In this document: positions 51,135-51,602 of the stretch, in pieces | Position numbering within the stretch: the first letter of the stretch is position 1 | How the letters are laid out: each line of letters starts with the position of its first letter | Assembly: GCF_021568285.1 (NCBI RefSeq) | Contig: NZ_JAKGTQ010000002.1 | Location: forward strand, 682,001 to 746,000 | DNA from: Rheinheimera sp. UJ63 | GTDB taxonomy: Bacteria; Pseudomonadota; Gammaproteobacteria; Enterobacterales; Alteromonadaceae | Direction: 5' to 3' | DNA length: 64,000 bases | Made by a program: the position numbers and the translations under genes | The notes under the pieces: generated by a model | Seen by the model: the letters and a program-made list of their open reading frames with translations, nothing else | Databases searched by the model: none | What the model was told of the DNA's origin: nothing

Positions 51135-51199
51135 TTGTGGGAGCCCTGCTGTTTATGAATAGCGAACCGACGACCTTCGGGTTACCGAAATTTAGACAC

Positions 51200-51223
51200 A
51201 AAAAAATCAGCACAAGGCTGATT
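51200..51223 (-). terminator. Terminator hairpin of repeat unit 1 (similar copies near 51304-51322 and 51403-51421)
   Basis: On the minus strand AATCAGC-CTTGT-GCTGATT is followed by a T-run. The same hairpin recurs once per repeat with a changed loop but intact stem, so it is probably selected. Confidence 0.8.
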
Positions 51224-51497
51224 AAGATGTTGGTTGCGGGAGCCTTGATTTTGGTAAAGAGCGAACCGATGCCCGTTGGGTTACCGAAATTTAGACACAA
51301 AAAAATCAGCACAAAGCTGATTAAGATGTTGGTTGCGGGAGCCTTGATTTTGGTAAAGAGCGAACCGACGTCCGTTGGGTTACCGAGATTTAGACAAAAA
51401 AAAATCAGCACAAGGCTGATTAAGATGTTGGTTGCAGGAGCCCTGATCTTAGTGGAGAGCGAACCGACGACGTTCGGGTTCCCGAAATTAGTGTACA

Positions 51498-51520
51498 ATA
51501 AAACCGACTTAATAGTCGGC
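51498..51520 (-). terminator. Rho-independent terminator after the tRNA-fMet genes
   Basis: On the minus strand CCGACT-ATTA-AGTCGG is followed by TTTTATT. It begins 7 bases after the CCA end of the promoter-distal tRNA. Confidence 0.7.
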
Positions 51521-51525
51521 TTTGT

Positions 51526-51602
51526 TGGTTGCGGGAGCCGGATTTGAACCGACGACCTTCGGGTTATGAGCCCGACGAGCTACCAGGCTGCTCCATCCCG
51601 CG
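51526..51602 (-). tRNA. tRNA-fMet (CAT), copy 1
   Basis: 77 nt with encoded CCA. The minus strand starts CGCGGGATGGAGCAGCCTGG, has the CAT anticodon with the three G-C pairs below it (GGG...CCC) and a C1-A72 mismatch, all marks of initiator tRNA. The T-arm GGTTCAAATCC is intact. It is the distal member of the tandem pair. Confidence 0.96.

Follow-up and report, generated by a model that had tools for sequence, protein, structure and literature searches.

Behind a pair of initiator tRNA genes in Rheinheimera sp. UJ63 lies a tandem array of four units that end in copies of the tRNA-fMet 3′ tail. It was found in a window that comprises the whole stretch of DNA analysed here (64,000 nucleotides of contig NZ_JAKGTQ010000002.1). 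In related genomes, the module and its insert are conserved, exact tails are clustered at fMet loci, and the terminators that accompany the units depend on their place in the operon. In addition, seven tRNA loci of the UJ63 genome carry extra copies of their own tails. The reading that we favour, with somewhat less than even confidence, is that the array would be a set of cis-bound, co-transcribed tRNA-tail modules, that is, trailer pieces cut from the pre-tRNA, whose transcription, processing and benefit we infer from the DNA.

Anatomy of the tRNA-fMet array

The array follows two tRNA-fMet genes of 77 nt each and of the same sequence. In the direction of the genes, the features of the locus are the following.

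51687-51763, minus strand: tRNA-fMet gene 1, anticodon CAT (ARAGORN; Rfam tRNA, 61.3 bits)
51609-51633, minus strand: hairpin just before tRNA-fMet gene 2, with a CTGCTC loop (fold)
51526-51602, minus strand: tRNA-fMet gene 2, identical to gene 1 (ARAGORN, Rfam, sequence comparison)
51504-51519, minus strand: terminator-like stem-loop CCGACTATTAAGTCGG directly behind tRNA-fMet gene 2, then T-rich TTTTATTG (fold)
51429-51525, minus strand: unit 1, 97 bp, type A, tail GGCTCCTGCAACCA (CCA-to-CCA count)
51403-51421, minus strand: terminator between the tails of units 1 and 2 (terminator scan)
51330-51428, minus strand: unit 2, 99 bp, type A, tail GGCTCCCGCAACCA (CCA-to-CCA count)
51304-51322, minus strand: terminator between the tails of units 2 and 3 (terminator scan)
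51231-51329, minus strand: unit 3, 99 bp, type A, tail GGCTCCCGCAACCA (CCA-to-CCA count)
51205-51223, minus strand: terminator between the tails of units 3 and 4 (terminator scan)
51132-51230, minus strand: unit 4, 99 bp, type A, tail GGCTCCCACAACTA with 2 mismatches, without a terminator after it

An earlier note, made from the sequence alone, had described a minus-strand repeat array behind the tRNA pair, and both Tandem Repeats Finder (99-bp period, 3.3 copies, 90% matches at 51161-51489) and the count from CCA to CCA bear this out. Its four 99-bp units are indeed four, with unit 1 measuring 97 bp. Each unit is made up, in order, of a 20-nt piece of tRNA-fMet that spans from the 3′ side of the anticodon stem to the 5′ strand of the T-stem, an 18-nt insert and a 14-nt acceptor tail, which differs from the fMet tail at 1, 0, 0 and 2 positions in units 1 to 4, respectively. 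Because these 18 nt replace the 6 that separate piece and tail in tRNA-fMet, the T-arm, or T-loop, is interrupted in type A units; this corrects the earlier note, which gave each unit the T-arm and acceptor end. The similarity itself is above chance, so that the alignment check proposed in the earlier note does not refute it: the best local matches of the units to tRNA-fMet reach 30-42, whereas their dinucleotide shuffles (500 per unit) peak at 22-30, and all four units exceed their own shuffles. The units are not called as tRNAs, since the full genes 1 and 2 are all that ARAGORN and Rfam report for the window, and they lack the 5′ acceptor strand expected of a member of the tRNA genes.

A 130-aa ORF with a 33-aa repeat spans the array (51106-51498, minus strand), and it does so because 99 is a multiple of 3. 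A coding repeat was rejected, since the distances between tails in relatives include 98, 101 and 105. In E. coli, the rttR repeat also contains an annotated frame, tpr.

Units 2-4 open with an AATCAGC/GCTGATT terminator, while unit 1 opens with a hairpin of different sequence. The three terminators of the window have the form AATCAGC-loop-GCTGATT followed by a T run, with CTTGT or TTTGT as the loop, just as the intact stems and changed loops of the earlier note would have it. For the stem of the CCGACTATTAAGTCGG hairpin, the terminator scan gave the plus strand only. Separately, the hairpin upstream of tRNA-fMet gene 2 keeps its CTGCTC loop constant between species, with stem letters that vary on both sides; it folded in each of 25 spacers from the genus (20 distinct) and may be a processing or promoter element.

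Placement and conservation of units and terminators

The survey of relatives covered 31 genomes of the Rheinheimera group. Exact GGCTCCCGCAACCA is present in 30 of them, at 2-3 places each, and a reversed control pattern has no match in the 31; a dispersed mobile element is not favoured by this clustering. Sixty-six regions around exact tails were inspected (L031-L094, which make 64, plus L023 and L001). ARAGORN finds an fMet gene in 63 of them, two more, both in genome G044, have one that is partly masked, and one is a contig end in G022. These 63 regions yielded 86 units, divided equally between type A and type B (43 each); type B has an enlarged anticodon loop and no 5′ strand of the T-stem. 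Four further type B units, from the two G044 regions and the G022 contig end, were left out of this count; with them, no genome among the 31 is without a unit, although in some the only one is broken. The contigs with an exact type A piece are named Rheinheimera, Arsukibacterium or Alishewanella.

Both types occur mixed in single arrays, and units are found in three settings: past the final fMet gene, in the spacers that separate fMet genes, and following the fMet gene in a tRNA-Leu/fMet locus (L023). In this locus, which we take to be the metY-rimP-nusA operon, the next gene reads on. The number of units per locus varies from 0 to 5 and several loci have none; thus, the array is dispensable in places.

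The earlier note had called the units decayed, a misleading description that their conservation between species does not support. In type A, mean majority identity is 91.8% for the tRNA piece, 87.9% for the insert and 94.6% for the tail, compared with 59.7% for the upstream flank, in the 33 of 43 units that have standard spacing, with units within an array not being independent of each other. As the insert is not tRNA sequence, copying from the adjacent tRNA alone does not explain its conservation. Rapid exchange between strains could, nevertheless, mimic selection on the insert.

No comparable conservation appears at the level of folding. A conserved RNA fold of the fMet units was rejected on alifold consensus energies of -0.12 for type A (40 distinct) and -3.79 for type B (39 distinct). 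Stretches with a single unit fold only modestly better than their shuffles, partly on account of the terminator (z of -2.8, -2.0, -1.6 and +0.5).

The terminators follow a different rule from the units. In the genus, 34 of the 53 units that come after the last fMet gene have one and the other 19 do not, whereas units between fMet genes (0/11) and in the Leu/fMet locus (0/22) are free of them in all 33 cases. The same distribution holds directly behind the fMet gene itself, where a terminator is found at 27 of 32 last genes, at 0 of 25 non-last genes and at 0 of 30 genes in the Leu/fMet locus. Terminators therefore go with the place and not with the unit, and are part of the downstream flank, outside the module. 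A terminator of its own, which the earlier note gave to each unit, is no defining mark of a unit: the window has three, plus one hairpin, but none behind unit 4, and the 33 units between fMet genes or in the Leu/fMet locus have none.

A stricter scan still finds terminators at 32 of the 86 unit flanks, compared with 0.5 expected from shuffles. Among them are 12 stem strings, some of which are one stem at differing lengths, and the stem cores differ on both sides (AACCAGC/GCTGGTT, AATCAGC/GCTGATT, AGCCGACT/AGTCGGTT and AGCCTAC/GTAGGTT). Since the cores change on both sides, pairing is kept while the letters vary. The locus thus has the marks of an array of intrinsic terminators, above chance and with pairing kept in relatives, in a manner that depends on place. 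The earlier note had allowed that the hairpins might prove decayed in related strains; instead, they are kept there, with stems that differ by changes on both sides, and this check does not refute its claim either.

Beyond the genus group, type A was seen in Pseudoalteromonas, in 6 of 14 stretches found with a search for an exact 28-mer, so that the identity of these copies is given by construction but their layout is not. In the four stretches with tRNAs in view, type A follows the last of three fMet genes, and terminators could be recognized by eye, with another unit type alongside. Across 197 genomes of the order, the type A model (R1) is a weak test, as it also recognizes the tRNA proper and for this reason has matches at E<=0.001 in 157. 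Among the matches listed, R1 scores clearly above true tRNA-fMet (33.4 bits) in UJ63 and in G082, and marginally above it in G164, G102 and G047 (33.5); all these belong to one family, and none of the matches listed is clearly above the true tRNA outside of it. Similarly, fMet tails exceed anticodon arms in few of the 197 genomes outside the genus (for instance, 11 vs 4 in G038, 8 vs 4 in G082 and 4 vs 2 in G102), in a count that misses tails with altered letters.

Own-tail copies at other loci and the RtT family

All 63 tRNAs of the UJ63 genome, the number also given by Rfam, were examined in 26 loci with flanks of about 0.6-3 kb. Extra copies of the locus's own tRNA 3′ end are present at seven of them, namely Phe, Pro(tgg), Val(tac), Arg(acg), Glu, Tyr and fMet; the fMet copies were found with shorter words, as the 18-nt test missed them. 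In the arrays of these seven tRNAs, the 5′ part is the one that is lost or replaced. By contrast, tRNA-Asp has a 5′ fragment behind the gene in place of 3′ copies. The window also contains, at 40432-40530 (minus strand) and about 10.6 kb from the array, a spacer and the 5′ half of a third, decayed tRNA-fMet. Given this lone half and the Asp fragment, relics without a 3′ bias do exist.

Units of the Val locus are conserved as well (64 tails, one of them clearly spurious, at 21 loci). The Val unit has an enlarged anticodon loop that is able to form a small hairpin; this minihelix, suggested by the UJ63 units, was rejected because it is not retained in the genus, by reading of the alignment. The Val anticodon-loop insert, GCTCTTTAC.AAGA, resembles the T-loop insert of fMet type A, GCTCTTCATAAAGA, in a different arm. 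A further observation concerns a tRNA-Asp and a tRNA-Arg locus (L102 and L105), downstream of which a long common sequence, gagatactttcttttgcgtcgccaaaagaaagt..., is probably an interspersed repeat of the genome.

The earlier note had seen in the fMet array a parallel to the repeats of E. coli tyrT, and this parallel holds for layout: E. coli K-12 tyrT runs as tRNA, unit, tail, unit, tail, the same as here. Moreover, the RtT family (RF00391) is present in UJ63, at the Tyr array with 52.1 and 44.8 bits (cut-off 45) and, more weakly and under the cut-off, at the Arg array (34.3 bits, E 0.0027). The fMet units themselves have the tandem, same-strand layout behind a tRNA gene and the host-tRNA 3′ end that mark RtT repeats. 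Nevertheless, the fMet locus has no RtT match at E<=1, and hence no score above the gathering score, and so the array is RtT-like in layout only and falls outside RtT by the tests run.

RtT matches at E<=0.01 were found in 42 of 197 genomes of the order (27 over the cut-off), 18 of 31 of the genus (4 over the cut-off) and 62 of 274 sampled Gammaproteobacteria (19 over the cut-off). For closer reading, 142 matches were taken, 54 from loci of the order and genus and 88 from 60 further stretches picked from the lists; many of them are under the Rfam cut-off, and the fetched ones were chosen for score and spread. At least 15 of the last 17 letters equal the 3′ end of a tRNA in the same stretch in 107 of the 142, and all 17 do in 91. 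The hosts of these tails are of 13 isoacceptors: Arg(acg) 20, Tyr 15, Ser(gga) 15, Lys 15, Gln(ttg) 14, Ser(cga) 7, Ser(gct) 6, Ser(tga) 5, Glu 3, Pro(tgg) 3, Pro(cgg) 2, Arg(ccg) 1 and Gln(ctg) 1. The closest upstream tRNA is of the tail's own type for 101 of the 142 matches. For 21 others, ARAGORN finds no upstream tRNA, which in some cases reflects gaps or broken genes, and some are apparently true orphans (L161, L165). The L165 unit differs, on both sides of its closing stem, from the Ser-like tail that precedes it. Five of the 142 matches (one in L135 and four in L246) have their start within a Lys tRNA and may represent something else.

In the RtT matches, the tail would pair with a 5′ strand that fits it. 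Own tails pair with this strand at -16.5 kcal/mol compared with -11.3 for random tails, a difference reached in 0 of 2000 permutations over 127 distinct pairs, which include related, non-independent sequences and G-rich partner strands that fit several Ser and Tyr tails. This test was done without anchors and after an anchored version, which gave 5.0 of 8 pairs for own tails vs 4.1 for swapped ones (0 of 2000 permutations) and left out the 32 of 142 matches that lack an anchor. No more than 10% of foreign tails match the stem in 83 of the 127 pairs, a level that the other 44 do not reach. L158, a tRNA-Arg locus, differs from the other Arg loci in its tail and, jointly with it, in the partner strand.

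When units were ranked against foreign tails in the same way, the median rank of the closing stem was 0.03 for Tyr (n = 2), 0.03 for E. coli Tyr (n = 4), 0.00 for Arg (n = 1) and 0.06 for Phe (n = 1). It was 0.26 for fMet type A (n = 39), 0.32 for type B (n = 41), 0.35 for Val (n = 55) and 0.76 for Glu (n = 3), values on which a matched closing stem was rejected for the fMet, Val and Glu units, and it was 0.10 for Pro (n = 4), which lies between the two groups. As judged from these sequences, own-tail units seem to be of two sorts: those of RtT-like form, whose closing stem is matched, and those of remodelled-tRNA form, which lack such a stem.

Competing explanations and known systems

Several of these observations would also be expected if the array were a by-product of recombination, an account that comes close behind trailer modules in plausibility and is to be taken seriously, if with some doubt. 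Unequal crossing-over and slippage at the 3′ ends would have duplicated and trimmed tandem tRNA genes, and the units would be harmless debris without any role, kept alike by repeated conversion. This fits arrays of 0-5 units next to multi-copy tRNA genes, and the sharing of arrays by types A and B, the broken unit with which some arrays finish, the plain decayed 5′ half of the third tRNA-fMet and the 5′ fragment behind tRNA-Asp all agree with such an origin. However, debris would hardly keep an insert so much more conserved than its flank, nor would the insert be expected again in another family. The consistent loss or replacement of the 5′ part in the arrays of seven tRNAs and the RtT closing stems that track the host tail also argue against it.

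Serial termination, by which the array would stop strong tRNA transcription ahead of the convergent downstream gene and the tails would be mere homology for multiplication, draws on the three scanned terminators and the fourth hairpin of the window, on the frequency of terminators in end-of-operon units, and on the excess over shuffles with changes that preserve pairing. It is improbable as the whole explanation, because it accounts for the spacers but leaves the conserved body and tail unexplained, and because terminators are absent from 33 of the 86 units (those between fMet genes and in the Leu/fMet locus), from 19 of 53 end units and, by eye, from the Val, Glu and Pro units of UJ63. Even less probable, to the point that we give it very little weight, is that the units are DNA-level sites, that is, displaced 3′ fragments or decoys produced by integrases that target tRNA 3′ ends. 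The inserts do lie in the T-loop (type A) or the anticodon loop (type B and Val), which are the classical places of integrase crossover in tRNA genes, and direct repeats of the tail flank every unit. Yet the region at 38.5-51 kb has nine ORFs of 150 aa or more, and a Pfam scan of eight of them found no integrase; the role as integration target or decoy suggested by the earlier note thus has no support. Furthermore, units are only about 100 bp long, in types A and B the insert is flanked by tRNA sequence on either side, unlike in a displaced fragment, and an element moving between isoacceptors would be reasoned to spoil the host tail. The stretch at 39289-50775, between the array and the relic and just past it, encodes an HDAC-like protein, two WYL regulators, a DUF2779 protein, a double AAA ATPase, a weak GIY-YIG match, an OGG-like glycosylase and one ORF without a Pfam match; from its sequence, it looks like a defence-type or cargo block.

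Under the trailer-module reading, the modules would be remodelled 3′ parts of tRNA-fMet, without the 5′ acceptor strand, the D arm and the anticodon, that hold a small insert in the T-loop (type A) or the anticodon loop (type B) and retain the tail with its CCA. They would be transcribed as trailer or spacer of the tRNA operon, because they lie on the same strand, where the polymerase passes on from the tRNA. Their excision from the pre-tRNA would yield short RNAs with a tRNA-like 3′ end, like the rtT reported in E. coli; it is because RtT RNAs have been reported, in E. coli and by Northern in Actinobacillus pleuropneumoniae, that the fMet units are taken as pieces cut from the pre-tRNA. At operon ends, the copied downstream flank would supply a terminator with most units, so that over-running transcripts would stop stepwise, and where the operon continues, between fMet genes and in the Leu/fMet locus, the same modules would come without terminators. 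The repeated tRNA tails would let recombination gain, lose and shuffle copies. A broader proposal, rather unlikely in its full extent, is that of a Gammaproteobacterial class of tRNA-tail RNAs, with an RtT branch (at least 13 isoacceptors, the own 3′ end re-paired with a tailored 5′ strand) and a remodelled-tRNA branch (fMet, Val and Glu), whose tails might be matured by the tRNA 3′-end machinery and whose RNAs might be used, for instance, to buffer or sense tRNA maturation.

Ever since rtT was reported in 1991, the repeats at E. coli tyrT have posed a puzzle (via the accessible parts of PMC2965389 and PMC4986893). If the pattern holds, a single layout stands behind many tRNA genes, fitted in each case to the tail of the tRNA concerned, which amounts to dozens of natural experiments, and any change in a tail should be accompanied by one in its partner strand, as appears to be so at the tRNA-Arg locus L158. 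It also carries a warning for annotation, as copies of tRNA tails near tRNA genes are not always scars of islands. In the literature searched, which covered few subscription papers, neither an fMet-tail array with place-dependent terminators nor RtT ends and closing stems that follow the host tail turned up, and this is weak evidence of novelty.

Among known systems, tRNA trailers are also the source of 3′ETS-leuZ, a sponge RNA from a pre-tRNA trailer that is not known to be repeated or to bear a tail copy. Placement in the trailer is what the fMet units would have in common with it. BIME-type repeats that resemble rtT and are possible attenuators are likewise repeated, hairpin-forming and linked to termination, but lie upstream of many unrelated genes (accessible part of PMC2965389), as opposed to the 2-3 places per genome of the fMet tails. 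Arrc20 and Arrc21, the RtT-family RNAs of A. pleuropneumoniae that give Northern signals, lie beside non-Tyr tRNA genes (Asn, Lys) and are placed upstream of them, in a report whose accessible part does not mention an own-tail rule (PMC4986893). The closest system is RtT itself (RF00391; rttR, the 178-bp repeats of E. coli tyrT and tyrV), from which rtT is reported to be released as a discrete RNA (Bosl and Kersten 1991, as described in the accessible parts of PMC2965389 and PMC4986893). Compared with it, the fMet units are shorter, do not match the RtT model, have no stem that closes on the tail and bear terminators at operon ends, while none was seen in the Tyr units of UJ63. In both, nevertheless, tandem units of variable copy number stand on the same strand behind or between tRNA genes and finish with the 3′ sequence of their host tRNA, CCA included.
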